Shown here piece by piece: positions 16,901-63,912 of a stretch of 64,000 bases of DNA. The stretch covers positions 46,489,747 to 46,553,746 of the forward strand of contig NC_090292.1 in assembly GCF_037392515.1 (NCBI RefSeq), given 5' to 3'. Position numbers and translations under genes: made by a program. The first letter of the stretch is position 1. Each line of letters begins with the position of its first letter. This stretch comes from Haliotis asinina (lineage: Eukaryota; Mollusca; Gastropoda; Lepetellida; Haliotidae). The notes beneath the pieces are model-generated. The model made no database searches, was not told where the DNA came from, and worked only from the letters and a program-made list of their open reading frames with translations.

Positions 16901-19900
16901 TGTGATCAGTAGAGGACGTAACGTGTACGCGAGACGGTCTCCCATTACGTGTACAAGTGACTACATGAGAGGGGGTCACTCATACGCGTGACTGCCTGAT
17001 CACAGACAGGGAAATTCTGCATGTCACACAAAAACGCATCTAAAAGTGTTATTTATGAAAATAATTAAAGAAAATTTGCTATGGTTGTTGACTGATGGTC
17101 ACGTTATTGGATGACGTGAATGAAAGCATAAAAAGAGGAAATTAAATTGTCAAAAAATGACAAAAAAGTGCAAAATTTGAGCAAAAATTGATGATATTTA
17201 ACAGAGAATTTCACCTATGTACATATTTTTCAGAAACTTAAATTTAGTATTTTCTGAAAGCTCATTCATCGTAGATTCATAATATATATGCAGCTTCCGA
17301 TGCACACCAACGCACACCTGTTTGTTATTGTGTTGAAACATGTTTACTTTCTTCGAAACTGCGCGAACCGTCTCGCGTAGAAGTGACTGGGTTACCGTGT
17401 CATTAATGGGAGGTAACTGATGCCTGACTAAATTGCTCAGTCAAAACATCCGTCTTGCGTCTTGGACTGTCCGAAGCATACGTAATTTAAATGGCGATAT
17501 TTTTCTTGCGTTACAACAATGAGGATATAATAAATTATAACAAAATCACGAATAACATTTTTTCATGCGGAATACTCTCTTTGTTGGAAGTATAATCATT
17601 GGAAAACACGACCACTTCTACCGATGTAAAAACAGTTTTACGTTTTATGTTTGCTGCTATAGCAGTAGATTTTAGACTTTTGACGACAATTTTCACCTGT
17701 GTGCACATTTCACACAAACATGATCTTTATATTTTCTGAAAGCTTGTTCCATGCAGATTTACCTCGTATAAGTACTTGTTCGTGTACACGAATGCACATA
17801 GGTGTACAATCGCGATGAAACACATCTACTTTCCACCCACCGCTCGGCACAGACACACAAACGGCCTCACAATTTCATTACGCGTACGAGAGACGCTTCC
17901 CAGAAGCACGAACAAAAGTAGTCAGTTTCTGACGGCAATTTTCACCTATGTGCAAATTTCACACAAACATGATCTTTGTATTTTCTGAAAGCTTGTTCCA
18001 TGCAGATTTACCTCGTGTAAGTACTTGTTCGTGTACACGAATGCACATAGGTGTACAATCGCGATGAAACACATCTACTTTCCACCCACCGCTCGGCACA
18101 GACACACAAATGGCCTCACAATTTCATTACGCGTACGAGAGACGCTACCCAGAAGCACGAACAAAAGTAGTCAGTTTTTGACGGCAATTTTCACCTATGT
18201 GCACATTTCACACAAACATGATCTTTGTATTTTCTGAAAGCTTGTTCCATGCAGATTTACCTCGTATAAGTACTTGTTCGTGTACACGAATGCACATAGG
18301 TGTACAATCGCGATGAAACACATCTACTTTCCACCCACCGCTCGGCACAGACACACAAACGGCCTCACAATTTCGTTACGCGTACGAGAGACGTTACCCA
18401 GAAGCACGAACAAAAGTAGTCAGTTTTTGACGGCAACTTTCACCTATGTGCACATTTCACACAAACATGATCTTTGTATTTTCTGAAAGCTTGTTCCATG
18501 CAGATTTACCTCGTATAAGTACTTGTTCGTGTACACGAATGCACATAGGTGTACAATCGCGATGAAACACATCTACTTTCCACCCACCGCTCGGCACAGA
18601 CACACAAACGGCCTTACAATTTCGCTACGCATACGAGAGACGCTACCCAGAAGCACGAACAAAAGTAGTCAGTTTTTGACGGCAATTTTCACCTATGTGC
18701 ACATTTCACACAAACATGATCTTTGTATTTTCTGAAAGCTTGTTCCATGCAGATTTACCTCGTATAAGTACTTGTTCGTGTACACGAATGCACATAGGTG
18801 TACAATCGCGATGAAACACATCTACTTTCCACCCACCGCTCGGCACAGACACACAAACGGCCTCACAATTTCGTTACGCGTACGAGAGACGTTACCCAGA
18901 AGCACGAACAAAAGTAGTCAGTTTTTGACGGCAATTTTCACCTATGTGCACATTTCACACAAACATGATCTTTGTATTTTCTGAAAGCTTGTTCCATGCA
19001 GATTTACCTCGTATAAGTACTTGTTCGTGTACACGAATGCACATAGGTGTACAATCGCGATGAAACACATCTACTTTCCACCCACCGCTCGGCACAGACA
19101 CACAAACGGCCTCACAATTTCGCTACGCGTACGAGAGACGCTACCCAGAAGCACGAACAAAAGTAGTCAGTTTTTGACAGCAATTTTCACCTATGTGCAC
19201 ATTTCACACAAACATGATCTTTGTATTTTCTGAAAGCTTGTTCCATGCAGATTTACCTTGTATAAGTACTTGTTCGTGTACACGAATGCACATAGGTGTA
19301 CAATCGCGATGAAACACATCTACTTTCCACCCACCGCTCGGAACAGTCACACAAACGGCCTCACAATTTCGTTACGTGTACGAGAGACGCTACCCAGAAG
19401 CACGAACAAAAGTAGTCAGTTTTTGACGGCAATTTTCACCTATGTGCACATTTCACACAAACATGATCTTTATATTTTCTGAAAGCTTGTTCCATGCAGA
19501 TTTACCTCGTATAAGTACTTGTTCGTGTACACGAATGCACATAGGTGTACAATCGCGATGAAACACATCTACTTTCCACCCACCGCTCGGCACAGACACA
19601 CAAACGGCCTCACAATTTCGTTACGCGTACGAGAGACGCTACCCAGAAGCACGAACAAAAGTAGTCAGTTTTTGACGGCAATTTTCACCTATGTGCACAT
19701 TTCACACAAACATGATCTTTGTATTTTCTGAAAGCTTGTTCCATGCAGATTTACCTCGTATAAGTACTTGTTCGTGTACACGAATGCACATAGGTGTACA
19801 ATCGCGATGAAACACATCTACTTTCCTGCTATTGGCCACAGACACACACACCGACCTCACAACATCAACAGACGTTCGAGAGGCAAAAGTAGTCGGTTTT

Positions 19901-22900
19901 GACGACGATTTTCACATGTGTGCCAGTTTCATAGAAACATTAACTTAACATGTTCTGAAAGCATATTCAATGCAGATTTACACCATACAAGTACTCGTTC
20001 ATGTACACGAACGCGCATAGGTGTGGCATCGCGTTGAAACACATCTACTTTCCTCCCACTGCTCGTCAGACACTCAAACCTTAGTCACAATCTCGTTACG
20101 GCTACGAGAGACGCCTTTGGCCACGGGAGCAGACCCGGTGCTCAATATGTTCACTCGCATCAAGTGGTACGTAAATTCGGAGGACTGCATGACCTTTAAT
20201 AGTTTAAACAAAATGTATTCTTGAACACACTGCATGCAGGAATTACCACTCATTTCCTTAAGTTTTATGTCATTGTCATCAACACGTAATATTATAGAAA
20301 TACGATTTCTCGACTTTTAAACAGATGACATGAATGTGATAAAAAAAGTGTTATTTAGACGGAGATTTATGTATTCATATATATTGTTTCCAGTCTAAGT
20401 AAACTTAGCCTCAGTACTTTTCCTTAGGCTCCACTACTGAGTCTAACAAAACCTTATGGGAGGTCGCGTCAGGTAACCTTTGGGACTTACCAATCAGAAC
20501 CCAGCTTTCCAAATCGCGAAAGTGGACATTCGCACACACCTTTTGAACTTTTTATCTCGAAAAGGTTCGTACCCGAACGATTCCGAATGTTATTTAGCGT
20601 ATGATCGCTTCTGGGTGATTCACACGGCGCACATTACAACCATGACAACAGAGTAAACTGTCTCCGAAAACAGTGTTTTGGCAATATTCAAGGGATCTCA
20701 TCTTGCGGAAATATTAGCCAATGGTAACCATGTCAACAGAAACCCCAAAGCGTATATACCGCAGGTCAAATATCTGTATTTTCTGCGGATTGTTGTTTGT
20801 GGAGAGATCTGTGCCCCTAAGTAGTAGCCGTTGTCTGATTGGTTAAATCTATATAACCGTCTCGCTATTGATTGGACGGTCATAGGTCGCTCAAAGGTTG
20901 CCTGATGCGACCTTCTGCTAGGGTTTGTTAAACTCAGTGGTGGAGTGTAAGGAATAACATTGAGACTGAGTTTACTTAGACTGACATTGTTTCAAAGCTG
21001 TATTATTACAGCAATAAATCAGTCGAGTCATCCCTGTTACACACGGAAGATGCCACTTCCCTGAGCAGATTTTGCTCACCTACATATCAACTGAATTTTT
21101 GTCACAACTGAATAAACATGATTCTGTCTTTTACCAGCTTAACAACACCAAACAAAATAGTTAGCATTTAATTGTGCGTTTTTAAGTTTACCACGGACGA
21201 TAAAGGCATCGTAAGCAGGAAACTGCACCGTGACTGGCCGTGTCCACAAGACAGCCGTGTCATCTGTCTGCAAATATGCTGTCTCCAAACCCAATAAATG
21301 GGTATCCAGTCTCCTACCTGTGTATTCAGGGCTAATCAACTGCAGTCATAAACTATGCCTGACTGCATCCTCTTCATTCCGGCTTAATCATTGCTGGAAA
21401 ACAGTGTCGTGTGTGATATTGCATAATCTGTGTGAAATATATTTGTGTTTCATTCTGTCAGGGGACAAATACAATTCGCCGTACTGAAGAATTTTGAACA
21501 TGCACCTGTGTCCGAGAATATATAACTATTTCCATAGTTATACTAAATACATATAAAACATTCAGTGAAAGGTTACGTAATTATGACAAATAATGCAAAA
21601 CTCCCTGGTATACACATATTTCTTCATTCTGCAGATGATGGCTGAAAAGGCTGTCTAAACCAACATGCTGGACTGTACCTGGGTCTGGTTGTCTTCCCCT
21701 GTCCATGCTGTCGTCCAGGAAGGAAACCCTTCCTATTTCACGCATATTCATAGAATATATATTTCTGTGTTGTCCTTTGAATGTATTGTTTTTATCTATG
21801 CATACTATTTAAGCCATCTACCAAAATAAAAGAGAGGAAAGCCGATGATAGCTTTGACAACGACGCACAGCACTTTCAAGTACTCTTCTAAGATAATCAG
21901 TACAAGAATAACTCCTTCATACCAAAACAGAACACTTTGAAAAACACTATTTCATTAGGCAATAAAAATCTGTTCATAAGTCGTCGATCAGTAATGCTAT
22001 GGACAATATTTTGAGTTTGTAATCATGTGGAACAGTTTTACTCCTTTCTTCATCATGAATATGTCATCTCATTATCACGTGAGCGATCGTTATCACGTGA
22101 TCAGTTCAATCGGAATGAAGTAAGAAAACGCTATTTTGCCCACCTCCATGCGACTTGAATATTTGTCACCACAAAATAAACATTTCTATGGCCTTTCACA
22201 GATTATCAAACACAAACAGGAAACGGAATGCATGTAATTAGCATTTAATTACGTGTTTTCAAGCTATCATAAAATATACCTCGGACGACAAAGGCACCGT
22301 AAACAGGAAATTACACAATCGCCCCCCCGTGTCCACCAGATAGCCATGTAAACTGTCTGCAAACTCTGAAGTAACGTGCTGTACTGCATCACACCTGTTG
22401 CCGGTCTCCACCTGTATATTCAATGATACCCAACTACAGTAATTAACTATGTCTGGCCGCGTTCGGCCTAGTCTTCACTCCAGTGTCCCGTGTGTGATAC
22501 AATAAGTTGCGTAATCCAAATGAAAGTTAATTGTGTTGCATTCGGCCAAAAAGATGAACCAAGACAAGCACAATTCGCCGCACTGATGTATTTCAAATAT
22601 GTACCTGTGTTTCATAACCATAGTTGTACTACATACATCTCAAACATTCAGTGAAAGCTTCATACATTTTCGTTTTTATAACAAATAATGCGATGTTCCC
22701 TGGAATGTGCGTGTCCCCTCATTCTGCCGTTCCCAGTCCAACGCAGCATGCAGGATTGTACACGGGGCTGGTTGTCTTCCACTGGCCATGCTGTCTTCCA
22801 GGAACGAAAACCTTTTCTGTTTCAAGCATATACAAAGAATATGTGTAAACAAGAAAGTCCCAGTTTTTACATGAAGTGGATCTGGTAAAGTGTGTTGTTA

Positions 22901-47181: not shown

Positions 47182-47352
47182 TCATTCCCCCGAGGATTTC
47201 TCAGGTGTTTTAACTATTTCATTGAGCTTCTTCTTGTATCCTTCAGCTTCCTCCTGCTTCTGCTGCAGTTGACGCTTGTACTCATCGGCCTGCTTCTGCA
47301 CTTCCTCCAGCTGCTTCCGGAGCCTGTCCTGGTCAGGATCGGTCTCATCAGC
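47182..47352 (-). CDS. GABPB: GABPB last exon: C-terminal leucine zipper and stop
   Basis: Acceptor gctatggttacag, stop TGA at 47184-47182. Encodes [40 protein letters not shown] and [16 protein letters not shown], a heptad coiled coil matching the vertebrate dimerisation zipper. It stops shortly after, so the long vertebrate GABPB2-like tail is absent. Confidence 0.96.
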   Translation of the reverse strand, partial: ADETDPDQDRLRKQLEEVQKQADEYKRQLQQKQEEAEGYKKKLNEIVKTPEKSSGE

Positions 47353-50300
47353 CTGTAACCATAGCAACAATGTCATCAAACATGGCAACATCTTCGTACA
47401 TTTGGAACTGTCACAATAATATCAGTTGCAAGGTACGAGAAAGTCTTGATGCCTTGAGTTCACATGCAGGGATAAACCTAGGAATATTTTTTGGTGCGCC
47501 AATGCCCTACCTGGTTAAATTCAGGTGGGCCCCTTTTAAATTTGGGTGTTTGAAGTTATCAGCTATGTACATTTGGAACTGTCACAATAATATCAGTTGC
47601 AAGGTACAAAAAAGCTTTGATGCTGAAAGGAGAGTTTGCACGCAGGAATAAACCTAGGAATATTGTTTGGTGTGCCAATGCCCCACCTAGTGAAATATAG
47701 GTTGCCCCTTTTAGATTTGTATGTTTGAAGTTGTCACCTTTATGTATTCAACTTAATTTGTATATTAACAAACTGTTTTAATAAGCTCTGTGACATCATT
47801 ATTCATAATCATGAATGGAAACCAAACACCAAAAGGTACCAAATGAAAGATTTTTAGAAATACAATTCCTGCTGAACTTAATACAACAACCAAATGCATG
47901 TGGATTTGAACTGGTTCACTGAATAGTCTTTTGAGAGATTGTGGTGAACAATAACAATATTTATTGCAATATATTTACCTGTAGGCTACTTAGGCTGCAC
48001 TTTTGGGATGCAGTGCTTTCAAAGAAGTATTTTTGTGTCTAAATATTTTTGCTGTTAAAAACTGAAAATCGCACCCATGCAAATTTCATGTCATACACCA
48101 ATCACATTTCACGTATGATAACTATACAAATAAGTAAGATCAAAAGGAAGCGCAAGTGGTGATGCACTCTCAAGACATTCACTGTTATCATATCAACATT
48201 GACTGACTCACTGACTGACTGATATATCTCCCAATTTGTGAATCATAAATATAAAAAAGTTCCCCTACTTTTGAAAAGGCACAAACACAAAATGTTTAGG
48301 CTGTCTCAATGAGAACCCTTGATGAAAAGATACACATTTTAAGGCTGAAGCACATGCCCATAAACATGGAAACTAGAAATCCAATTAAACATCTGTGAGC
48401 AAAAGATCTGTTAAACTCTCCACTGACAGATGGTGACAAATGAACTCAGGAAAGTCTGACCATCTAATATGGTGAAGGGTTTGTGGGTTGTTGAACTTGT
48501 TATATTGCTATACTCATTCTTACATCTTCGGCCATTACTAAAGGTGTTTCCTCTGTGGGCAGTGCATCGGCTTCTGCAAGAGCTACCTCCTCCAGGATTA
48601 CCTCCCCTTGACCATCCTCAGTTTTGATTTTCTTCAGTAGTGGCTCTGTTATTTCCGTCTCCTCAACTGAAAGGAAACAAGGAAGGTAACTGTAGATGTC
48701 ACTACAACCCATGTGACAGTCATGTATGCATAGAAAGCATCAGTGGTTCAAAAATGTTTTTAAAAGCCACTTGCCACAGGGCAAGATGCTTTAAGAAAGT
48801 AACTTGTCCTGACTAATTTTCCACTTGCCCTGTTTCTTAAGACATAATCATGATAATATAAACATGAAAGAATAAATAAGCATGATACTTGATATCGATG
48901 TTTAGTGGACTACTTATTGAGAAGTGACAAATTGCAAAAAAAATAATACTTTATTATCATTGTGATACTTGATAGCTACATTTTGAGCAGATATGAAATG
49001 AATCCAAGTTTTCAACCATAAGCAGAAATTATCTAGTAGCCTGCAGACAAGTATAAAAATATTACTTGACTGCCCGAAGTGAAAATTGACTTGTCACGGG
49101 CGTCGGGCAATGGGATTTTCGAACCCTCCAGCATGGACACATGAGTGAGTGAATGAGTGAGTTTAGTTTACACCACTTTCAGCAATATTCCAGAAATATC
49201 TCAGTGGAGACACCAGAAATGGGCTTCACACATCATATTCATATGGGGAATCGAATCAGTGCCTACAGTGTGATGAGTGAAGACTTTACTCACGTGCCTC
49301 TGAGCCAGAAAATTTCAAGGGTGGACGTGAGGAATAAAGCCCTGGGTCCTTATTCTTGAAATGTTCACAGTCCTAATAATTCCTAACTTCGATTGTAGTC
49401 AGCGTGTTGAAAATTAGCTTATGAAGTACAAAAGGCAGGGCTATGAACTCTTTGAGAATGGCTAGCCTGGTTTTCAGCATGATGAGACAATGTATAGACA
49501 CATAAATTATGGAGTATTCAACAATACTTACTGCGCTTAAAGCAGTCAGGTATCAATTAACAGAAATGTATCCTGATACAAGTCAAGTTTGAGAGTTCAT
49601 TATGTAGATGACGCAAGTTTGATTTCTCATATGGACCCAACGTGCACAAGTATGAAGTCTTTATCTGATATTATTTCAACCTACTTTGAAGTTTTCGTGA
49701 TATACAGTGAGAGGTTGTATATATTGAAAGCACAAGTTATGAACGTCGATAATTGTGGGTGTCACACAAAAGGCTGTAATATGTTTCGTGAGTCAAGATC
49801 TTTATATTAACATATGGTTTTATATTTTGTTGCCATGATTTTGCACCTAAAACAATAGTCACCAGAAAATCCCTAATCCCTCTGGCCCCATCATATGACA
49901 GCTACTTGAAGTCTTGATTTCCTTTTACGCTAAGTCCAAATTGTTTCCATGGAAATCATGAAAAATATAAATGCAAAAAAAATCTTTAAACAGAACCACT
50001 TCATGATCTGTTTGATATGTCCTCCAAGTGTTGTAGAAAGATACTGAAAGGTTTTCAGGTTGTAGTCTGGAAACAAAGTCCACAATTCCTTTTCCAGATT
50101 AAGTCCAAATTGTTTCCATGACAACTGGGAAAAATAGAAATGCCCAAAATCTGCAAACAGCAAAAGACGCCAGTTTGAGATCTGCTTCATATATCTGCCA
50201 AGTTCTGTTGAAAGATATCTAAAGGTATTAGAGTTGTGCTCAATAAACGAAACCCACCCTTCCCTTTCGAAACTAAGTCTGAAACATTTCCGAGAGAAAG

Positions 50301-53300
50301 AGAAAAACACAAATAATCAAAATCTTTAAATAGCAACAGGCACTACTGTGGGTTCTGTGTGATATACTGACCAACATTTTGGTTGAAAATATTGAGCATT
50401 TTTAATTTAAAAACAATTTCGGACGGAAAGACGAGATGCCAACAATATTTTACATTACAGGAAGAGCTGACTATATCCCATGCTGTACATGCTGAAAGGG
50501 TAAAAGATGAATAAAAAAAACCAACAACACATTTTTGGAGTGACGAGTTTTCAGATGCTTTGACATCATGTAAACCTCTGCAACTTGTATGAATTAGAGA
50601 GAGCACTGTCTACATCAAGCTGGACCCCCTGAATCTAACATCATGTGCGTGCACCCGTGAAGATGCTTGTCAGAATTTGACTTCAAGCAGCTCATGCTTG
50701 TCATAAGAGCCGACCAACGGAATCAGAGGGATAGGATCACTGACATAGCTGACACGTCACTGCATCACAATTGTGTAGATTGATGCTCATAATGTCAATC
50801 ACTGTATTTTCTGGGAGCGGTAGGGTTAAGGTGTTCGCTTGTCATGCTGAAGACCTGGTTTCAAGTCTCTACATGAGCACAGTGTGTGAAGCACATACCT
50901 CGTATCCCCTGTGATACTGCCGGAAAATTGCTAAAAGCAACGCAAAACTCAATGGACCATGTGATCCACACTGGATTATTTACAGACTACTGTGATATGG
51001 CTGGAATATTATTGAGTGCAGCATGAACAACAACCAAATAAACAAACTCTGTGTACATTCTGACTGTACAGTAAATATTCAAATCTGGACCAGAGAAAGA
51101 AGCAAAATTAAGTCCTAAATTTGAATATCGTGCCAGAAAACTGACTCTTGTTTCTGTATCAAAAGCTAATGCAAGACATTATCAATAACAAAATTTTCTT
51201 ATCAGAAACCATCAATAATTTTTCCCACTGACAATATTTCTGATTATCAATTATTTTCGCCAGCTATGGTTATGTAGGAGTTAACATTACTGCAGGTCTA
51301 CCTGACTCTTCCACCATCTGTGCCTCCATGGGGATCTGTGTGGTTGTGCCATCAGGGTTGACGGCCACCAGCACCGTGCCGCCGTTGTTGCTGGGGATCT
51401 CTGCCTCCCCTTGGTTGGCCACTATTGTTATGACTTTCTGAAAACGAAACAAACGTCTTTCAGTTCATACATGTTCCCAACTCCCCTACCCTAGGTGATA
51501 CATATACTGAACAGCTTTAAAAACACACCACACAAGGATCTACTGACAAAAATATGAAAATATAGGCTGGAATGAATGAATGACCCAATATGATAGGGAT
51601 CTCAAAATGCAAAACACACAGCCACATTTGTGGCTCGATATCACGAAAATCATAAAATGCATGTCATTTTAAAATTCTGACAGAGTAACCACATATGCAC
51701 ATGGGTATAAAAGACCACAAGTTCCAAACTGTTAATCACCAGTTTAAGTGAAAATTCAACCTTAATTGACCGTTTACCATGTCATGTTCGACACTGGAAA
51801 ATTGACAAAGAGCACTGGGTTACTTGAATGCTGGAGGGTCGACTTGGGAAGTCACTTAAACACTTAACTACTATCATTCCTCAATCGTCACTCCACTGAG
51901 GCTTGCAGCAGACTGGAAGTGCCCGGGACCATCAACATCCTTGACACCCACTTGTCACTATGCCCAGACAAGATCATCACATTGTGTAGCCCCACTTACT
52001 GAACAAAACCCAGACTGCAGTACATACAGTTTTGAAAATACAGCAGCAGCGTGGAATCATTGGCAACCAAACCATATAGCACTGTTTACGTGAGTAAGGC
52101 CTCCCTACACGGCGTCCCTACAATGGCCCCATATTGACACCTCGACACCAACAACGTCCCTAAGCCTGGGCCAGAAGCCATTGCACACAGTGGGAAGGTA
52201 TGCACTGTACTGATGAATCTCGAATTCAGCTCAGTCATGCAGATGGAAGAGTTCATCCATGGCGATGTCTTGGAAAAAGCTACGTGGATTGCTGCGTGTG
52301 ACGGGTAGATCACTTGGGTGGGGACAGCGTGATGGTTTGGTTGGGGTAGTGTGATAGTCTGGGTCGGCATCAGTGTTCATTCAAAAACACCGCTACGTGT
52401 GTTTTGAGGATGAGTTAATGCCATCACCTACGCAAACGACATCTTTACAAAACCACATTACGCATCTGAGTGCCAATCCATGTATGCAAATCCTTCAATA
52501 ACATAATGCTCGAGCACATACAGCCAAGGCACATCATGGACTTTCTGACACAAAACAATGTGGATGTGCTTCCATGGACAACTCTATCACTCAATTTGAC
52601 CCAGACTGAACACATCTGGGATGAAATGGGTTGACTTCTAATGATGGCACCACCTGCTGTCAATGTCTGTCAGTTGGAGGTCAACCTGCAACGTGTATGG
52701 CAATAGATACCCAAGCGAATAATCAAAATGGGGATTTTCTCAATCTGACAGCACTGTGTGGCAGTAATCAGCGCCAATGGCTGACACAACAGCTATTGAG
52801 CATTCAGTGATCAGTTGTGACTTTGGGTTTTTACTGCAGGTACCCCTATACATGACCTGCTCTGTCAATCTATCATTTTTTCGAAAAAATGTTTTCTTTG
52901 TTTCTGCTGTTAATTTTGTTGAGGGAATCTACAAGCTTTCTGATGAAGCAAGATATCAGGTGTACACTTCTGGTCAGAGTTGTCATCACCTGATCACCTT
53001 CTTCTGTCCCTTATATTGTCAACCTGAGTCCTCTGCCCTTCCTTGTCCACACGTTCTTCCTCCCCTTGTACACACCTTTTCTTCATCCTCTTTACACATC
53101 TGTTTTTCGTCCACCCTTCCTTCCCTTGTACCCACCTCTTCTTCTTCCCCTTGCACAAATCTGTTCTTCCTCCTCTTTACACATCAATTTTCTTCCCTCC
53201 CCTTGTCCACACGTTCTTCCTCTCCTTGCACCCACCTTTCCTTCCTCCTTTTTACACATGTTTTGCCTTCTTCCTTCCTCCCCTTGTACCACCCCTTCTT

Positions 53301-56300
53301 CCACCCCTTCTTCCTCCCTTTTTCACAACTGTTCTGCCTCCTCCCTTCATTGTACACATCTGATCTTCCTCCCCTTGTACTCATTTGTTCTTCCTCCACC
53401 CTTCCTCCCCTTGAACCCACCTGTTCTTCCTCCTCCTCGGCGCCCACCACATTCTCTATAGCACTCTCCACCTCCCCTTCTTGAGACACAGTCTGAGCTA
53501 GTCCTTGCTGCCTGATCAGATTTAGCGCTATCTTGCCAGCCTCTGAAACACAAACACAAAGATACAATCCACACATGAAGTGTACAGCATATTGATAATA
53601 CTTCTATGTCTACTGAGATCAAGGAGTCTGTACACTAAACATTTGCCTCCACTCCTCTAAGCCTGGCTGCTGGGGATTTCACCAGTCAGGGCTCAATGTA
53701 GTGTTTTGTTACTAGTCATACTGCAAACCAATATGACAAAGTATAACCTAGTTATCAGTCGCACTTTATTTTTGAGTAATAAATCAACAATACATCTAAC
53801 ATTGTAAGTACAAGTATGCTGGCTCATTTTCTTCTAAAGTTTGAATATCTACAGCACTGAAACATTGCGATTTATAGACACCTGTCGGCTGTTTATATCA
53901 TCTGCAAGAATTGCATCAAAGCAGTATTTCAACATGTCTTCACCTCTTTCATTTCCATTACTTTCAGAAAACATTATTGACGATCAAAATTAAAATGATT
54001 AAAGATTGGCTGCAATTACAAACGGCCAAGCAATCCAGTTTGGAACTCTTGTCTGCATTAACAATATTTTCTCTGTTACATTTCAGAACCACTGCTAGCT
54101 TGTTCAAAGTCACGACTGAGTTTATCTTGAAGAGTACAGGAAATTTATGTTCCTAATGTAAAAGTCATCTTTTCAAGAAGCAAAATTTGCACTTTTGGTG
54201 CAATTTGCTAAAAAGTCCCGAAAAAACTACATGTATTTTCTTTATGTTTTGTGCATTACGAGATATGATACCCATTAAATAATTTTGATGACTGATCAGC
54301 TGTAATGACCCGACCATTGGTTTGAGACTCTAACCAATTCCCAACGTGAGTCAGAATTGCTTCAAAGCAATATTTCAACATCACGTCATTCTGGTGTCTG
54401 CCGTCATGATATTGCTGGAATATTTTTAAAAGCGCCGTAAAACAAAACTCACTCATTACTACTTCAAAATTTTATTTCTGTTACTAAAATGTGTTTTTTA
54501 GAAAATGGCTCCTTTTTGAGAAGCACACAGAAGGATGAACCCCTTTGATAATTTTTGACTTTACTGTTTGGAATTTAAGGCTAATTATCCTTATGGATTC
54601 TGTGTTCAGAGAAACAATGTCACCATCGCTATAATGCAATGCACCATGATCTGAGAATCGTATAATCCCTTTGAAGAATGTTTACTCAGATCGGCTTCTG
54701 ACTTGGTTCAAATGTTGGTTCCACATCAAATCCATGCTTAGTAATTTACAGCATCATGTCACTTGAACAAAACATTTAGTGCAAATCAAAAGAGGGACTT
54801 TTGTTCCCCGTACCCAGCCAAGAGTTTCATGCACTTTTAGCGACATTTCTGCCGTAAAACGCCAGAGGACACTAGAAGTGGTCTTTACACACTGCACCCA
54901 ATGACACATCGAATCTGGTTCTTTGGTGTGACAAGTGATTCTATAACAGGTGTTAGTACTGAAGAGAATTTTCATGCAACATATTGCAATGTGAAGGCAT
55001 GTATTGTGATATTGCAAGAAGCATTTTTTAACAAAATACTACTTATAATCAAGTAAATGCTTGAATCATAAAGTGAAAACAATAAAATCACTGTGTTGTA
55101 ATAAAGGTCACATGCAATGTAAAACACAACTTTGCAGATTCTGGTATGCACTTACCGAAACAAATCATAAAAAATGCCAATTCAACCTATAAAGCTGAAA
55201 AAAATGCGATGAAAAAAAGCCAGCGAAAGCCAGCGCTGGGGGGAAAACTGGTTTCAACAGCTGTGCTGTGCTGCGTCCATAACGCATGCACAGTGAATAA
55301 GTTCGCGGAGCTTGAAACAGTATGCATGCCCAGCGTCTGAGGTTGTGAGCAGTAGTCTAATCTTAGTTGTGTACACAAACAAGTAAATAATCTACTCGTT
55401 ACGTAAAACAACTTGTTGATTGTGGTAAGCAGTCTCTGTCACAGGGAAATCTCAGTGTCTGGTTTATTGACACCTATATGTCTGTCTGCCAGTCTGCTAA
55501 AGACAACATGCAATACACAGCTTCAATCATTGACCATGTGCAATTTGAACTTAACACCTATCAGACTATACGACACAAAGAAAATAAGTTGATTTATGAC
55601 TCGTGCACCCGAGTCCCGTGTCTGCCACATTATGTAATTAGGCACGTGTGATACACATGACATGACACATACACATGTTTTTTATGTCTGTGGGTTGCAA
55701 ACAAACTACATTCATTTTTTTCGGATGACTGGATCTGACGGAAACTGGTGCAAACTCTTGTCAGTTTCAAGTCCTGCTTTGTACTTGGACGAATGACAGA
55801 TTCCAGCCACACAGTCGTTTACCATCTCTACTGACATGATTTTTGATTGGATCGAGCGCAAATTCAGAGAACATGTATTTTCCAAACCCAACATCTCTAT
55901 ATACATTCTTCATGGATAATTACTTCTTTATATGAATCCATACTGAAGCGACGCATCAAGTACACAAAAAGAAGTTGTTATCCATAAAGAATCTTACTTT
56001 CTTGTGCCTGGCTACACTTCTAAGATGCCCATCAAACAGATCATCTTTCTGTACACACAATGAACCCTCAGCATATCAGCAAATGAAACGGCCAATCGGA
56101 AGCTGTTGTTACACTTGAGTGCACATCCACCCGCTATGACTTGGTTCGGTCTCCCGAGGGCTTCGTTTCGGGGGAAGTAAGCCCAAGTACAAAATATTGC
56201 ACTTTTGAATCGCGATTGTACGCTTATAATTTTGTTTATTTGGTTTTTTTTAAAAGCAGCAATGTATATTATATGTCATGAATAAGTGATAAATGTGTTT

Positions 56301-59300
56301 TAACTATGTTTGATTTTTTGGTTGCATGTGACCTTTAAGCTTTCTTTTAATCATGACATGTAACAACTAAATATCTGAAGAGTAAAGCAGTAAATACCAG
56401 TACATTGTTCAGCCTTATTCACTTGACTACCCAATCACCCCTTACCCACCTGTGAGCGAGATGGTCTGGCCACTCTCCACTGCTGATGTGATGATGCCAC
56501 CGTCTGCTGTCGAGATCATGATACCTTGACTCTCCAACCAGTTCATCGCCTCCGATGAGCTCACATCTGAAAAACATAACATCAGTGGCTCAAATCATTA
56601 CACTTGTGTTCACTTCTTAAACATACATTTTAAAGGAAAAAGATTGCAATGAGAAAGGTAACAAAGAATGGATACTCTCTGTTGATGAATTGCATAAAAA
56701 GTTATCAGAATCTGAAAGGGGTCTTTCCAAATTCATTTCAGCTTTTTCATTTCTGAGCTTTTGATGACACTGTACTGATGCGTTTTGTTGAAAGTACATG
56801 AAAGTACAGGTAAAGTGCTGGCATACTCTATTTGAGTTACGGATCCTGTCATGACAAGGGGACATAACTTCGCATAACCTAAGCAGTGGCATGAGTGAAT
56901 GAGTTTGGTTTTATGCCGCTCTTACCAATATTCCAGCTATATTATGGCAGAAATGGGCTACAGATGGGGAACTGCACATGGGCCTTCAGCGTGATGAATG
57001 AACGCTTCAACCACTGGGCTACCCCACTAACCCTTCAATGTCATGAGTGTTCAGCGGCTAGAGCAACTACCTACTCTCTGAAATCATTTCCAAATTATAC
57101 TAAATTGTTGTTATGGTTACACAGTCTTTGTTAAGTTGGTTGACATGGCTACCAGAGTGAAAATTGTCAATGATGCCTTAGTTTGTCATTACATGTTCCT
57201 TACATCAGCGTTTGGTCCCAATGATCAAACAATTCTTTCAACATACTTGTTATGCCCACAATAAGGGTATTTCTTTGAGATATCTGTCAAAAGATATACT
57301 GCACAGGCATGCTTCAATCAGCTGGTGACATTATAAGTTGTTCACTGGTCACGAGGGGAGCATGGGTTGATGTACCCTCGATGTTTGTTTATGTTCCCTG
57401 ATCCCGAGGGGGATAAGTAAGGGATAGTTAGGACCCATTCTACCTCATTCCCTTGGGGAAGCAAACAAAGGGTACTGGGCAGTCATCAAGTTTACAAGCA
57501 ACCTTTTATGACAGCACTCAGAGGGGGCTTTAGGACTCCGGGGAAACAATCAAAGGGTAAGCACAAGTGTGCTCTGCAAGGCTTACTTAGCTCCAGGCAG
57601 ACAATCAAGGGGTATTGGGTAAGGCACAAGTGTGCTCTGCAAGGCTTACTTTGCTCCAGGCAGACCATCAAGGGGTATTGTGTAAGGCACTAGTGTGTTC
57701 TATAAGGCTTACTTTGCTCCAGGGAGACAATGAAGGGTTATTGGGTAAGCACCAGAGTGTTCTTCAACGCTTACTTCGCTCCAAGGAGATAATCAAGGGG
57801 CATTGGGTAAGCACTCGTGTGTTCTGCAAGGCTTACTTTGCTCCAGGGAGACAATCAAGGGGCACTGGGTAAGCAATAGTGTGTTCTTCAAAGCTTACTT
57901 TGCTCCAGGGAGACAATCAAGGGGCACTGGGTAAGCAATAGTGTGTTCTGCAAGGCTTACTTTGCCTCCAAGGAGATAATCAAGGGGCATTGGGTAAGCA
58001 ATAGTGTGTTCTGCAAGGCTTACTTTGCTCCAGGGAGACAATCAAGGGGCACTGGGTAAGCAATAGTGTGTTCTTCAAAGCTTACTTTGCTCCAGGGAGA
58101 CAATCAAGGGGCACTGGGTAAGCAATAGTGTGTTCTGCAAGGCTTACTTTGCGTGTTGATGGGAGCTGTGGCCTCAGCAAGGGCAGCCAGGGTGGCCAGG
58201 ACGGATGTGCTGCTTTGGTCCGAGATTTCTCCATCTTCTGGATTCAACAACACATGAAAACACTGCTGAATACCAAGATTTAGGCACCATCCAAAACATC
58301 CTCTAACACAAACAGAACAATTACAGACTTACAATTTTTCACAATTATCAAACCAAACCACATTACAGCCACACATACATCCCGTTCAAGGGCATCTGGT
58401 AAACTCAATTGCACTGACTCTGTGTTATAGACAAATACTTCCATTTCGGTCAAACATCATTTCTTTTTAATGTGATTCAACCCTCAGCAATATTACAGCT
58501 TGGTGACGGTAGCATCTAAAGAGACCAAATCGGACCAAACAATATATTGATTGATACTGTTGTCGGAGTCTGAGAACACAGTATTAACCAAGTGACCAAG
58601 CCTGGCATACTGTTGTCGGAATCGGAGTACACAGTATTAACCAAGTGACCGAGTCTGGCATACTGTTGTCGGAGTCGGAGAACACAGTATTAGCCATGTG
58701 ACCGAGCCTGGCATACTGTTGTCGGAGTCGGAGAACACAGTATTAGCCATGTGACCAAGCATGTGACTGAGTCTGGCATACTGTTGTCGGAGTCTGAGAA
58801 CACATATTAACCATGTGAGTCTAATTCAAAGGAGCATATTGCGTTTTGTTTCATATATCACCACAACATTGCTACGCTTGTGTATATAGTCAGTAAATTA
58901 TAAAACAATCCTATTTCAGATACACAGTATTTGAGTCATCATCATTGCACAAGCCACACCCAGCCTACAAATACACACAGTGTCATACAATTTCAAACAG
59001 TACAAAACGGTCAATATTTCATCACTAGAAACGTCCAAATTTTCATACTACAGATATGGGTGATGGGGTGGTGCAGTGGTTAAAACGTTTGCTCATCACC
59101 AAATGCCTGAGTTTGAGTCCCCATATGGGTACATGTGAAGCTGATATCTGGTGCCCTGGACCATAGTCACTCACTCACTCATATTCCATACCAAGGAGAA
59201 AGAGTGAATGGATTTTACACCAACAAAGTAACCAGTCACTATCAACTGGGTGTACTCTCAGGTAATGTGATAACCACATCAGAGACTGGTGTTGGTATGT

Positions 59301-62300
59301 CAGATATGAAGGGCTGCAACGATTAAGTTTGATTCATTGAAAATTGAATCTAAAACTTCAGTTTCAATTTTCGATAACCATAAGTGCTGGTCACAAAACA
59401 GCTGAAGTTAAGCAATGCTGAGCACAGAGATCCTTGGCAGGGTGACCATGTTTGGCAGCTTGATTCTTGAGAATCTCTTGCCCCACGATGAAGCACTAAT
59501 GATACAGGTTGTCTCACCTTAAGCAAAAGTGTTTGATCAAAATTGCCTTGTTCACGCAGCAGAAAATGGGTACCCGTTAGAAAAAGTGTTGAGACTAGTT
59601 TCCTTCTAGTGCCTCACAACAATTTTAGGGTGTGATTAAGTTTGGTTTTACGCCACTTTTTATTCCATCAAAATCATGACACCAGAAATGAGCATCGCAC
59701 ACTGTGCTCATGTGGGGATTCAAATCCAGGGATACTCCCCAAGTTATCCGGGGTAATAGTAAGATTGTGGAGCTTTGAGCGTGCTCCTTTGTGGTGCAGA
59801 ATTCAGAGCATTATTTCTACTCAGCTTCCCGTAAAATGTCGAGCATGAAAACAGGACTGTAGAGTTGTAACCACGAGAGGAATTGATCCAAGGTTTTCCG
59901 TCAGACAATCAAACACTATGACCACTTTGCTTCCCAACCACCCAGACGATCATGCTAGACAATAATGAATCTGCATATCGTCAATAGTCCAGTATTCTAG
60001 CATTATCACAGAGGGGACATCAATAAGCCTCAGATATTGTAACCATGTGGAGAGTCGAACCTTGGTCTTTGGTGTGATGTGTAACGCTCTAACCACTAGG
60101 CTACCCTACAACGATATGAGAACTAACACTGTCACATTAACACATCACTGATGAACACAGATTAAAAAAACACTGACATTTACTTCAAACATTCTCAAAC
60201 ATGAAAAACGACTGACCTTCCTATAAATTAATAGTGTCAAATTTTGAAATGGATTCCACAAAACAAATTATTACAGAAATTCATGAACAGCCCTTACTCA
60301 GGTTGGAAAATGTGACACTGTGACGGACATGATGATTCTTTCTTAATCAGTTTATGCTTCTATCATGGTAATAATTAACAAACATTAAGTTTTCCTTAAT
60401 TTTAGAGCAAAAACCTCAAAACACCAAAAGTGCTTAAGAACTTGTGCAAATAAACAACTCATAATTCCATCTCACGTGCTGTGCTAATTTAGTGAATACT
60501 TTTGTTTAAAAGGTGCAAAACAAATCCAAAGTCCAGCATGATATTCAATCCAGCAATACGTCTAACAACATCACAATTTCAGTATAATGGGGCAATATGT
60601 ATGTTTTGTGTGAGTGTGAGTGTTAGTGAGAGTGTGAGTTTAGTTTTAAGTCGCACTCAGCAATATTCCAGCTATATGGCAGTGTTCTGTAAATAATCGA
60701 GTCTGGACCAGACAATCCATTGATCTATGACATGAGCATCGATCTGTGCAATTGGGAACCAATGACGTGTCAACCAAGTCAGTGAGTCTGACCACCTGAT
60801 CACATCAGTTGCCTCTTACAACAAGCACAGCTGCCTTTCATAGCAAGCATGGGTTGCTGAAGACCTATTCTACCCCAGGACATTCACAGGTCGTCAGAAG
60901 GTGTGATTTGTCACCAACATAAAGTTTCTTTGGGCATTAACTTTTTTCTCTGTGTACTGTATGCATCTCCCTTCCTTGGTCCTGTGTGTTGGGGATTTTA
61001 GATTTGACTGTTTCATTATTATTCTCCACTTGTGCTGAATTTGTGTGCCATTGTTGGTTTGGTTTATTGTTTATTGTTTAACGCCAGACTTCAGCAATAT
61101 TCCAGTCACACAACATACATATAAATAATCCAGTCTGGACTAGACAATGATCAACAGCATGAGCATTAATCTACAGCACTGGGACACAATGACATGTGTC
61201 AACCAAGTCAATGAACTTGAGCAACCAATCCCGCTAGTCGCCTCTTATGACAAGCATGGGTTACTGAAGATCAATTCAAATCTGGATCATCACAGGTCTG
61301 AGATAAGCATTATTCTCTATAGCAGAGTATATGCATCTGACACCTACATTATCAAAGTAAAAGTATCTCAAAGGACACTGACAAGGCTACATTGGGAAAA
61401 TTACATAGAGTTCTGATACTACTGTTTTTTCTCAGATTAGTCTGACGTTTTCAAGCAAGAAATTATGATAAATCTCAAAATATTGTATACATTTCATAAT
61501 AATCCTGTTGAGCAAATTCTGTGGGTATAATGTCTTTGACACAGAAAAATGGAAACGGTGTTTGATGCAAAAATGCATTTTGTGCCGGTTAAGTAAGGGA
61601 GATAAGCCTAGCTCCTTGCTCTACACATTACGTAAGGCACCAATTTCTCACTTTTGGATTTGGAGGTGGATGCAGTGTTAGGAACAATAGCAACAGGCAA
61701 CACCGCCCCACCGTCCCTGTCTCCCGCGCCGAGAACATTGGTGATCATGTCCGATGTCGTCTCCACCGTCACCGTCTCCCCTTCGGTACAGGTGATCTCC
61801 GTGTGCTAGAAAGAACAGCGAGAGCAAGTGAGCTTCTGACTGATTTAAACATATTTTATGCACTGTGAAAGGGACATGTTAGCCAACTAAACACACACGT
61901 TCCCTGAGCTTCTGACTGCTTCAGGGCTTCAGTGTGATTAATTTTAGTTTACGCCACTTTTCATTCCATCAAAATCATAGTGGGGACACCAGAAATGGGC
62001 TTCGCACACTGTGCTCATGTGAGGATTCAAATCCAGGAATACTCCCCAAACAATATTCCCCATGTGAACCTTCATTCCTACCTGTGCTAGTTGTAAAAGT
62101 TGTGCTATATCAGTTCTCCCATTGGCGATGGCAATGTCCAGTGGTGTTCGGTCAAACTGTAACGAAAAAATTAGACAGGAGTGATGCGATTTTTCCACGA
62201 GTCTATAGAGTAGACCTGTAACAACTACTCATGCATTGATACACATTGAGATACACTGTGATACACAAAAATGATACAAACCATTTCCTTACAGCTAAAA

Positions 62301-63912
62301 TCAACTGGAATAACAGCTTTCTATAAATATCAATTTTCAGAGTGAGTGAGTTTAGTTTTACGCCGCACTCAGCAATATTCCAGCTATATGGCGGCAGTCT
62401 GTGAATAATCGAGTCTCAACCAGACAATCCAGTGACCAACAACATGACCATCGATCTGCGCAACTGGGAACCAATGACATGTGCCAACCAAGTCAGCGAG
62501 CCTGACCACCCGATCCCTTTAGTCGCCTCTTAAGACAAGCATAGTCGCCTTTCATAGCAAGCATGGGTTGCTGAAGGCCTATTCTACCCCGGGACCTTCA
62601 CGGGTCTCAATTTTCAGAAGAATCGATGTGAAGATTTGCATAAGAATTTGTCTTCAGCAACATATGTTTGGTGTTTTTAGTAAAAGCCTCGCTGACTAGA
62701 ATGATGCATATTATCATACCTAAACCATGTGCATCGATGCTCATGATACCAATCACTGGATTGTCCTGTTCAAGTTTTAATATTTACTAACTGACACACA
62801 CAGAAGGATTATTGATGAGGTTTTAACAACAGAAAACACACCTAATTCATTAGGCAGACAGACCAAAATTTTATGGAATGAGAATTTACTTATCAAGGTC
62901 ACAGGTGGTTCTTCATGGACACTAGTGAATGCAGAGTTATCTCACCTTGTTTTCAAAGTTGGTGTCCGCAGAGTGTTTCAGGAGAATCTCAACGACTGGA
63001 ATGTGTCCTTTTTCTGTGGCCCAATGAAGTGGCGTCATCTTCAGCTTAAACAACAGACACAAAATGGTTACATCTGAATTCTACATATTGCTTCAAGGCC
63101 ACTTTGACCGGAAATTGTAACTTAGGACATCCTTCAGGTTTGATAATGTCTGCCTAATTTAGAAACTTTGACGTCTTCTCACCGAGATTCATATTGCCCT
63201 TCTCAATTTCGGAATTTCAAGACAGACCACCGCCATATTGCTGGAATATTGCTGTAAAACTAAATTACTGATTTCTGATGCTACACTTTCTTGAAAACCT
63301 GGTTTGCAAAACAGCATATATGAGAACAGCGTATATTTATTACTGCCAACCCAGATGCTTGAAAGCACAAGAAATTGACTGTTCTCCAACTGCAACCGTA
63401 GTGATAATCCTTGCATGCATCACTTCCTGTTTTTAGGGGTTCAAGCCGTGCGAACCTAATTACTGTGCATGTGCTATGGACCCAGCAGAGCTGGTGAAAT
63501 CCCTTTTTCCTCCAGTGTGCGTTTGAAATGCCATTCAGGGGCTTGAATTCATTGCAATATTTTTCAACTTTATGTGTTGAATTTGCATTTTTGAAAATTT
63601 GTTTCTGTAAGCCAATGCCAAAAGGTATCAGAATCTGCAAGGTTGTGTTTTACGTTGCATGTGACCTTCAAGCAGTAACATCCGAGTACAAATAGCTCTG
63701 CAGTCTATACTGACCATGTCTTTAGCATCAATGTCTGCTGAGTTGTCCAGGAGAAGCTCCACAATCTCAACATGGCCTTCCTGAGCGGCAACATGGAGGG
63801 GTGTGCGGTCCACCTTGGTGCGAGCATCACGACTAATGCCTGCTCTCAGCAGGACTTCTGCCGTTTGCTGGTGGCCAAACTGGGCGGCAAAGTGAAGAGG
63901 GGATGTTCCCAG
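47182..63912 (-). CDS. GABPB: GA-binding protein subunit beta (GABP beta), N-terminal exon outside window
   Basis: GABP beta joins the Ets-domain subunit GABP alpha through ankyrin repeats and supplies activation and dimerisation to a nuclear transcription factor of mitochondrial and housekeeping genes (family knowledge). Ten exons (63912-63715, 63044-62946, 62156-62082, 61805-61652, 58237-58148, 56566-56450, 53542-53421, 51437-51302, 48666-48524, 47352-47182) give 1,305 nt, 434 residues plus TGA. Phases match at every junction. Ankyrin repeats fill the first ~90 residues ([48 protein letters not shown]) and follow vertebrate GABPB closely. Next come a [12 protein letters not shown] segment, a VITIV block, acidic and LLKKIK stretches and a C-terminal leucine-zipper coiled coil. 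The first ~35 residues are missing because they lie past 64 kb. It is convergent with the membrane-protein gene. Confidence 0.97.
47396..47740. repeat. ~170-bp tandem duplication in last GABPB intron
   Basis: Two copies share tacatttggaactgtcacaa, aaacctaggaatatt, gtgccaatgcccacct-like and cccctttta text. Non-coding. Confidence 0.85.
48040..48290 (-). repeat. Unclassified dispersed repeat (partner at 6700-6920)
   Basis: Inverted relative to the 6.7-6.9 kb copy; shares tggtgatgcactctcaa and ttatcatatcaacattga. Confidence 0.6.
48524..48666 (-). CDS. GABPB: GABPB exon: LLKKIK region
   Basis: Acceptor gtttcctttcag, donor GAT|GTAAGA, phase 1 in, 0 out. Encodes [46 protein letters not shown] sits where vertebrate GABPB has a basic nuclear-localisation-like stretch (PLTKKPRI). 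Confidence 0.92.
48741..49130. mobile_element. Possible hAT-like MITE
   Basis: Ends cagtggttcaaaaat and attttcgaaccctcc form an imperfect inverted repeat. Sub-terminal ccacttgcc and gacttgtcacgggc phrases recur. Target duplication unclear. Confidence 0.45.
49140..49318 (-). mobile_element. SINE family B
   Basis: (GTGA)n, tttcagcaatattccagaaa, accagaaatgggcttcacac, then inverted B box (ggggaatcgaatc). Confidence 0.85.
49915..50440 (-). repeat. ~175-bp tandem repeat, inverted relative of 27640-28395
   Basis: On the - strand shares tccatggaaac-type, ttttggctgtt-like, gaacct and caaaactt motifs with the other array. About three units. Confidence 0.75.
50665..51045 (+). mobile_element. SINE A interrupted by SINE B
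   Basis: Family A pieces at about 50665-50810 and 50956-51045 flank a family B copy (ggtagggttaaggtgttcgc, ggtttcaagtctctacatga, gctaaaagcaacgcaaaact). Family B was therefore still active after this family A copy landed. Confidence 0.8.
51302..51437 (-). CDS. GABPB: GABPB exon: VITIV block
   Basis: Acceptor cgttttcag, donor TCAG|GTAGAC, phase 0 in, 1 out. Encodes [40 protein letters not shown] and MVEES, matching the vertebrate RVITIVTDG...QVLTVPA region. Confidence 0.94.
51770..52790 (+). pseudogene. Dead Tc1-like transposase
   Basis: Fragments in shifting frames follow the order of a Tc1 transposase. HTH part near 51.8-52.0 kb: GMLEGG-like, VTPLR. Catalytic part near 52.2-52.6 kb: TDES (first Asp), [20 protein letters not shown], and a C-terminal segment near 52.55-52.63 kb resembling the PDLNPIEHLWDE region (LNTSGMKW). 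Many frameshifts and stops; inserted in a GABPB intron. Terminal repeats not identified. Confidence 0.75.
53040..53420 (-). repeat. Pyrimidine-rich minisatellite abutting a GABPB donor
   Basis: On the - strand units resemble gaggaagaacaaatgagtac plus aaggggaggaag; the exon end and intron start read gaggaagaacaggtgggttc plus aaggggaggaag. The array thus copies the exon-intron junction, though most units have lost the exact GT. Confidence 0.85.
53421..53542 (-). CDS. GABPB: GABPB exon: acidic activation segment
   Basis: Acceptor gtgtttcag, donor CAG|GTGGGT, phase 1 in, 0 out. Encodes [40 protein letters not shown]. The frame stays open into the intron for about 79 more codons through a minisatellite. 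Confidence 0.9.
54390..54460 (+). mobile_element. SINE family B tail fragment
   Basis: gatattgctggaatattttt, aaaagcgccgtaaaac and ctcactca; 5' part missing. Confidence 0.7.
54830..54955 (-). mobile_element. SINE family B, degenerate
   Basis: Shares cttttagc, gacactagaa, cacactgcacccaatg and atcgaatctggttctttggt with inverted family B. Confidence 0.55.
55104..56338 (-). mobile_element. DNA transposon with TAAAGGTCACATGCAA ends
   Basis: taaaggtcacatgcaa at the left is inverted at the right end (ttgcatgtgacctttaa, ~56322-56338). The left ~230 bp reappears inverted at 63400-63670. Inside is a THAP-like fragment. The superfamily is unclear; the target duplication cannot be read because the ends are nearly palindromic. 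Confidence 0.65.
55690..55837 (-). pseudogene. THAP zinc-finger fragment
   Basis: From an ATG at 55837-55835 the - strand reads [41 protein letters not shown] then stop. C-x4-C followed by HQFPSDPxxRKKW-like spacing is the first half of a THAP DNA-binding domain. The distal Cys and His are not in this frame. It lies within the TIR element, so it is probably a relic of that element's protein. Confidence 0.5.
56450..56566 (-). CDS. GABPB: GABPB exon: [10 protein letters not shown] segment
   Basis: Acceptor gtttttcag, donor ACAG|GTGGGT, phase 1 to 1, 117 nt. Encodes [20 protein letters not shown] and [18 protein letters not shown], probably part of the transactivation region. Confidence 0.9.
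56893..57035 (-). mobile_element. SINE family B
   Basis: gagtgaatgagtttgg, ttaccaatattccagctata, gcagaaatgggcta, then inverted head (gaacgcttcaaccactggg, ctaccccac). Confidence 0.85.
57540..58147 (-). repeat. ~62-bp minisatellite repeating a GABPB donor site
   Basis: About ten units of ggcttactttgctccaggga, gacaatcaaggggcactggg and taagcaatagtgtgttctgc. It ends at the exon border at 58148: on the - strand each unit carries gcaaagtaagcc, the same 12 bases as the true donor. Looser units extend back to about 57360. Confidence 0.93.
58148..58237 (-). CDS. GABPB: GABPB exon: [12 protein letters not shown] segment
   Basis: Acceptor gttgaatccag, donor CAAA|GTAAGC, phase 1 to 1, 90 nt. Encodes [20 protein letters not shown] and [21 protein letters not shown] is diagnostic of GABPB. 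The donor abuts a minisatellite that repeats it. Confidence 0.95.
58460..58560 (-). mobile_element. SINE-like fragment, degenerate
   Basis: Shares tcaaccctcagcaatatta, agcttggtgacgg and accaaacaat with family A. Weak. Confidence 0.4.
58550..58820. repeat. ~62-bp minisatellite
   Basis: Five units share gcatactgttgtcggagtcg, gagaacacagtattaacca and gtgaccaagcctg. Confidence 0.9.
59055..59180 (+). mobile_element. SINE family B, short
   Basis: Head ggggtggtgcagtggttaaa, ctgagtttgagtccccatat (B box), then a shortened body and (CTCA)n. Confidence 0.85.
59387..59520 (+). mobile_element. 5S-rRNA-headed SINE
   Basis: gctgaagttaagcaatgctg and tccttggcagggtgaccatg match the 3' half of 5S rRNA, the region holding the polymerase III internal promoter. 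It is followed by a non-5S tail (ctcttgccccacgatgaag, cactaatgatacaggttgt). Only part of 5S is present, so it is not a 5S gene. Confidence 0.75.
59636..59745 (-). mobile_element. SINE family B variant, truncated
   Basis: ggttttacgccactttttat, ccatcaaaatcatgacacca, tgtggggattcaaatccagg. Same variant as 61935-62055. Confidence 0.75.
60000..60112 (-). mobile_element. SINE family B head half
   Basis: gtggagagtcgaaccttggt and taaccactaggctaccctac, the inverted B and A box regions. Confidence 0.8.
60628..60898 (-). mobile_element. SINE family A, near full length
   Basis: gagtttagttttaagtcgca, cagcaatattccagctatat to accccaggacattcacaggt. Confidence 0.9.
61056..61300 (-). mobile_element. SINE family A, diverged
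   Basis: gtttaacgccagacttcagc, gtctggactagacaatgatc, gcctcttatgacaagcatgg. Confidence 0.82.
61652..61805 (-). CDS. GABPB: GABPB exon: linker after ankyrin domain
   Basis: Acceptor ctttctag, donor AAAA|GTGAGA, phase 0 in, 1 out. Encodes [20 protein letters not shown], then a Gly/Val-rich stretch ending NTASTSKSK, a Thr-rich flexible linker. Confidence 0.88.
61935..62055 (-). mobile_element. SINE family B variant
   Basis: tttagtttacgccacttttc, accagaaatgggcttcgcac, gaggattcaaatccaggaat. Ends 27 bp from a GABPB exon. Confidence 0.8.
62082..62156 (-). CDS. GABPB: GABPB exon: ankyrin repeat 4
   Basis: Acceptor cgttacag, donor CAG|GTAGGA, 25 codons, phase 0 to 0. Encodes [20 protein letters not shown] followed by LQLAQ, matching the vertebrate FDISIDNGNEDLAEILQ capping repeat. 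Confidence 0.96.
62340..62607 (-). mobile_element. SINE family A, full length and little changed
   Basis: gagtgagtgagtttagtttt, tatatggcggcagtctgtga to accccgggaccttcacgggt. Close to consensus, so probably young. Confidence 0.92.
62680..62800 (+). mobile_element. SINE family A, degenerate
   Basis: gcatcgatgctcatgatacc, aatcactggattgtcctgtt. Tail lost. A further tail-only scrap lies at 63225-63275. Confidence 0.6.
62946..63044 (-). CDS. GABPB: GABPB exon: ankyrin repeat 3
   Basis: Acceptor gttgtttaag, donor AAG|GTGAGA, phase 0 to 0. Encodes [20 protein letters not shown] and [13 protein letters not shown], one ankyrin repeat per exon. Confidence 0.97.
63400..63672 (-). mobile_element. One end of a TAAAGGTCACATGCAA element
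   Basis: On the - strand follows the left part of the 55104-56338 element: ggtcacatgcaacgtaaaac, gcagattctg, caaattcaac, actgcacatgcacagt-like text. The other end was not found. Confidence 0.65.
63715..63912 (-). CDS. GABPB: GABPB exon: ankyrin repeats 1-2
   Basis: Acceptor gcttcag, donor ATG|GTCAGT, phase 0 to 0, 66 codons. Encodes [40 protein letters not shown] and [38 protein letters not shown] is nearly the vertebrate sequence and includes GABP alpha contact loops. Confidence 0.97.

Follow-up and report, generated by a model that had tools for sequence, protein, structure and literature searches.

A ten-unit minisatellite spanning the donor site of a GABPB exon in the mollusc Haliotis asinina

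The GABPB locus and its donor-spanning arrays

A 64,000-nucleotide stretch of the genome of the mollusc Haliotis asinina (assembly GCF_037392515.1, contig NC_090292.1, positions 46,489,747 to 46,553,746 of the forward strand), hereafter the window, carries a GABPB gene in which a minisatellite spans the end of an exon and its 5' splice site, or donor. The gene is modelled as ten minus-strand exons, A-J, at 47182..63912, beginning at exon A, on the basis of the joined model and a match to chain 1awc_B (GABP beta 1). Joining the exons yields a single open frame of 434 residues before the stop. The ankyrin part aligns with 1awc_B in one stretch (query 1-121 to chain 33-153, 1.1e-47); the N-terminal ankyrin repeats are like those of GABP beta, many other ankyrin proteins match as well, and the C-terminal half of the modelled protein is presumably also GABP beta-like. 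The matches listed include neither a second GABPB copy nor a retrocopy, the latter sought as a check on the splice in a weak test that missed exons E-G of the gene itself; the listed matches outside the locus fall mainly on the ankyrin part. The genome also contains genes for egg lysin, and one of their exons matches solved structures of sperm or egg lysins, which are abalone proteins.

Exon E (58148..58237, minus strand; 90 nt, phase 1-1) is placed by the joined frame of 434 codons, and its putative authentic donor, GTAAGC in the context AAA|GTAAGC, lies at 58142..58147. A preliminary description of this DNA had placed a minisatellite of about ten copies in GABPB against an exon at 58148-58237, and both exon and array are borne out: splicing at 58147 gives one open frame over the ten modelled exons, and ten units were found at 57537..58152 on the minus strand, the array starting at 58152, the fifth-last base of exon E. 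Unit 1 therefore consists of the last five exon bases, the authentic donor and the intron bases beyond, so that the donor of exon E itself lies in the first unit, as in arrays of the ABCA7, CBS and IFI6 kind discussed below. The units measure 62-63 bp on the sense strand, the last one being truncated, and run to about 57537; Tandem Repeats Finder (TRF) calls the array at 57555-58152 with a period of 62, 9.6 copies, 90% matches and a score of 896. The exon E flank from -5 to +25 recurs downstream with a score corresponding to 30 of 30 identities, a value reached in none of 300 introns resampled from a first-order Markov model.

The same description held that each unit contains gcaaagtaagcc, a motif of the minus strand. 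This was overstated, because the exact 12-mer is present in only six of the ten units, with one mismatch in three others and two mismatches in the last, but the hexamer GTAAGC is invariant across all ten. At up to two mismatches GCAAAGTAAGCC occurs 14 times across the window against an expectation of 4.3, and 10 of these sites fall inside the array. The unit alignment and these motif counts support the tandem arrangement of near-identical donors, and all ten have the same modest predicted U1 duplex energy (-4.5 kcal/mol), so the downstream units keep the donor. Each unit also carries, 18 bases beyond its donor, a complement of the donor hexamer. In unit 1 this is GCTTAC (58118..58123, minus strand), which matches the reverse complement exactly; GCTTAC is intact in eight of the ten units, and units 8 and 9 bear a one-base insertion.

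A second, degenerate array spans the donor of exon G (53421..53542, minus strand, from the joined gene model), which reads GAAGAACAG|GTGGGT and is the next donor but one after that of exon E. TRF rows place this array at 53037..53433 on the minus strand, with units of approximately 25-36 bp starting 13 nt inside the exon. The junction flank is repeated in the adjacent intron better than in any of 300 resampled introns; with up to 9 mismatches of 26 allowed, it matches at 12 positions, of which two overlap, where 0.5 would be expected. Seven of the 12 aligned positions keep the donor GT (e.g. GGAAAG|GTGGGT, GT at 53235) and five are without it, and by its sequence the exon G array looks older than the exon E array. 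Across the gene, repeated flanks are present in the adjacent introns of two of nine donors (exons E and G) and of none of the nine acceptors tested.

Origin and growth of the exon E array

When the whole array was searched against the 1.14-Gb genome, the only match was the array itself, in a search that skips very common words and without a profile search of the whole genome, suggesting that the array was probably born and grown in place. The same unit was not found elsewhere at the sensitivity of BLAST, and a dispersed satellite or mobile-element origin was rejected on the single genomic match. A profile scan of the window recovered the ten units. Beyond these it gave one candidate of low significance at 57456-57482 (E 0.4) and five matches that were weaker still (E 4.8-9.3), none of which is claimed as an array copy.

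The exon-proximal part of the array consists of two 187-bp blocks on the minus strand, the first comprising units 1-3 (57966..58152) and the second units 4-6 plus one base (57779..57965), which are identical at 185 of 187 positions and also appear as a period-187 row in TRF; unit 1 is identical to unit 4 and unit 2 to unit 5. Units 7-10 (57537..57778, minus strand) are more diverged, units 7-9 sharing 52, 54 and 56 identical bases with unit 1 and the truncated unit 10 sharing 49, and so the exon-proximal part looks younger than the distal part. The newest growth step looks like a duplication of 187 bp, or three units together. The block length corresponds to 3x62+1, with an extra G where the blocks join, which fits a duplication with its left break in the exon at -5/-6 and equally fits a one-base G slippage following an in-register duplication. 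The array would thus have begun with the tandem duplication of a segment of approximately 62 bp over the junction (five exon bases, the donor and the first ~57 intron bases); slippage or unequal exchange would then have raised the copy number to ten, with three units copied together in the last step.

Junction-spanning arrays elsewhere in the genome

A survey was made of 80 exons from the kinesin (60 of 128 matches) and TCP1 (20 of 52) families. Matches were picked mostly by rank, and among the rows passed over were intronless-looking matches and several that contained stops. A stop lies within the 30 codons examined in 13 of the 80 exons, some of the regions overlap, exons of one gene are not independent, and the ends assigned to the exons depend on Pfam matches, which can run past the donor. 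Arrays span the exon/donor junction in two of the 80 exons (L105 and L108), or in 4/89 when GABPB is included, two of the four coming from the very gene in which the array was found. Array coverage just past the match ends is 6.7%, and 4.2% in the first 100 bases; with two of 80 junctions spanned, junctions are therefore not struck more often than introns, and may be struck less. In 3/80 exons, a GT close to where the match ends has a repeated flank scoring at least 36; at one of these three, L072, the array starts ~37 nt beyond the likely donor and was not counted as spanning. Among intronic GTRNG control sites, 19/126 have a repeated flank, a higher proportion than among exons, although several sites can belong to one array. 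No acceptor-side spanning array was found among 20 surveyed acceptors, or among 29 with the nine of GABPB, and the difference between donors and acceptors (4/89 vs 0/29) is not significant (p 0.57, computed with 30 acceptors).

For the two spanned junctions of the survey, donor positions were read from sequence. L105 (G000:C9:45573253-45574093) is a kinesin P-loop exon with an array of 105 bp x 3 that starts ~58 nt before the likely donor and copies these exon bases together with the donor into the intron; the copied donors are altered. L108 (G000:C1:66067278-66068118, minus strand) is a kinesin exon ending in EIYNEK, with an array of 71 bp x 2.8 that starts ~27 nt before the likely donor; its donor, AAAAG|GTAATG, is copied with the exon end, and the second copy is identical around the donor. 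A further kinesin intron, L082 (G000:C9:2977058-2977898), is largely a 39-bp array in which some units carry an acceptor-like CAG|GTGTTCACA, and this array ends ~20 bases ahead of the likely next exon.

Genome-wide, three copies of AAAGTAAG with gaps of 48-62 bases gave 174 matches against 192 for the reversed pattern, and AGGTAAGT with gaps of 24-54 bases gave 692 against 826, these counts being of matches, several per array, and not of arrays; eleven arrays from the loci of the two pattern searches were run through TRF. Donor arrays as a selected class are not supported, the counts not exceeding those of the reversed-pattern controls, and they look like the chance yield of a minisatellite-dense genome. 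Minisatellites (TRF score of at least 80, period 9-400) make up 11% of the window. The view of the GABPB array as an exceptional case is not supported, given the second donor array in the same gene and the sampled junctions, which are spanned no more than coverage predicts.

Predicted effects on splicing and alternative explanations

With the donor at 58147, exon E reads on into exon F in frame, and by the gene model this would be the sole frame-keeping donor of the ten. Each of the nine others would bring in a TGA at 58104..58106 (minus strand), 41 nt past the authentic junction and before the second donor, leaving 219 instead of 434 modelled residues. Since the nine share one stop, a shift to any of them would mean loss of function rather than a set of useful isoforms. 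Competition among the donors is possible in principle, yet the exon-proximal donor would be used almost always, as the frame of 434 residues is kept at 58147 only. A small share of transcripts would go to the near-identical donors downstream; such transcripts would carry the same early stop, lose the C-terminal half and mostly be degraded. AG sites within the units could act as cryptic acceptors of 28-nt exons; their pyrimidine fractions (0.38-0.62) overlap the low end of those of the real GABPB acceptors (0.56-0.94).

This architecture is, as far as can be read from the DNA, of an already known kind, best matched by human ABCA7 and similar to human CBS and IFI6. In ABCA7 intron 18, a 25-bp variable number tandem repeat (VNTR) adjoins exon 18 and includes its donor, and retention of one unit occurs in ~2% of transcripts, breaks the frame and is independent of VNTR size, whereas skipping of exon 19 rises with VNTR length (PMC5954066). 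As in GABPB, the repeat at the exon end includes the donor, and use of the next donor retains a unit and breaks the frame; the ABCA7 unit, however, is 25 bp from the donor GT, with measured length variation that was tested in RNA, whereas the GABPB unit is 62 bp, reaches over five exon bases and is described from sequence. The human CBS 31-bp VNTR, c.1444_1467+7(16_21), has alleles of 16-21 copies (PMC2630376), and by its notation the unit comprises 24 coding and 7 intronic bases; it thus spans the exon/donor junction as in GABPB, with a shorter unit holding more exon. The human IFI6 (6-16) minisatellite likewise supplies multiple donors, and its downstream units are reported to serve as donors in mRNA (Turri 1995). 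In potato RdRp, where by the title of the report an intron was gained by tandem genomic duplication (PMC4974935), the duplication similarly carries splice-site sequence, but there a new intron arises, whereas in GABPB an existing junction has been multiplied into the intron.

Taken together, the array is probably a minisatellite that arose at the junction, is for the most part neutral and breaks the frame through splicing at a low level; it would be mainly a by-product of a minisatellite-dense genome. Differences in copy number may affect how often neighbouring in-frame exons are skipped, as in ABCA7. Several points weigh against this reading. In GABPB alone, two of nine donors are spanned, above the 7% expected from coverage, although not significantly (P 0.13). 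GTAAGC is unchanged in every unit even though units 7-9 differ from unit 1 at ~10-16% of bases, and only 6 of 1326 pairs of six-column blocks are as substitution-free as the donor and its complement, in a post hoc comparison that dropped units 4 and 5 as duplicates and left out insertion columns; donor invariance slightly favours some constraint. In addition, the choice of donor is read from the modelled frame, and birth at the junction from one assembly.

The preliminary description also suggested that the array could shift splicing or absorb U1 and might vary in copy number between individuals. A shift is plausible, with ABCA7 as precedent; U1 might be absorbed, at sites that each have a modest predicted duplex; copy-number variation is likely by analogy, and the regulatory reading is possible. 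That the array acts as a length-dependent switch lowering GABPB output through frame-breaking donors or exon skipping is unlikely. Each of the nine additional donors would run into one and the same stop, a message lacking exon E would stay open for 404 residues, exon F (117 nt, phase 1-1) could be left out in frame too, and next-exon skipping in ABCA7 grows with VNTR length; the retained-unit isoform of ABCA7, however, remains at ~2% whatever the VNTR size (PMC5954066), and the GABPB case for a switch is drawn from sequence.

An enhancing role, in which U1 bound at many downstream sites would raise recognition of a weak authentic donor and aid inclusion of exon E, is rather improbable. It is considered because in human PAH exon definition is enhanced when U1 binds downstream of the natural donor. 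The exon E donor, at -4.5 kcal/mol, is the second weakest of the gene's nine (predicted U1 duplex range -4.3 to -13.0 kcal/mol), but the similarly weak donors of exons D (-4.6 kcal/mol) and I (-4.3 kcal/mol) have no repeated flank, whereas the strong donor of exon G (-11.4 kcal/mol) has one, and across the genome tandem-donor matches show no excess over those of the reversed control.

It is very doubtful that the array masks its own donors, with the complement covering the additional donors and, in some folds, also the authentic one; were this so, array length would tune how exposed the exon E donor is. In predicted folds around each donor, GUAAGC is mostly paired (unpaired probability at most 0.15) in eight of ten units, with GCUUAC as the pairing partner in units 1 and 3 but not in units 8 and 9, and one 91-nt fold leaves the authentic donor open and the second masked. 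GCTTAC, which resembles the 5' end of U1, would arise in the shuffled rest of the unit with a probability of 0.02. Two units, however, fold no better than shuffles (z 0.27; 121/200 shuffles at least as good), and the masked donor changes with the stretch folded; hairpin masking was not adopted as the main mechanism on this z value. Mis-assembly of the copy number or the whole array is very unlikely, since although tandem arrays are error-prone and the two blocks are 185/187 identical, the units differ from one another, the distal ones are clearly diverged, a 187-bp duplication is nested within the array, and the array is only ~0.6 kb in an assembly where arrays are common.

A class known from single human loci therefore occurs in a mollusc too, twice in one conserved transcription-factor gene, and a rough rate of 4/89 junctions suggests that minisatellite-dense genomes may hold many natural donor-competition experiments. 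In such experiments the near-identical donors would differ mainly in their distance from the exon, and donor choice against copy number would be measurable by ordinary RNA-seq. Other minisatellites in the window include a 53-bp array at 58554-58818, in the intron before exon E and ~320 bp upstream of that exon, and a 249-bp unit x9.9 at 17678-20114.
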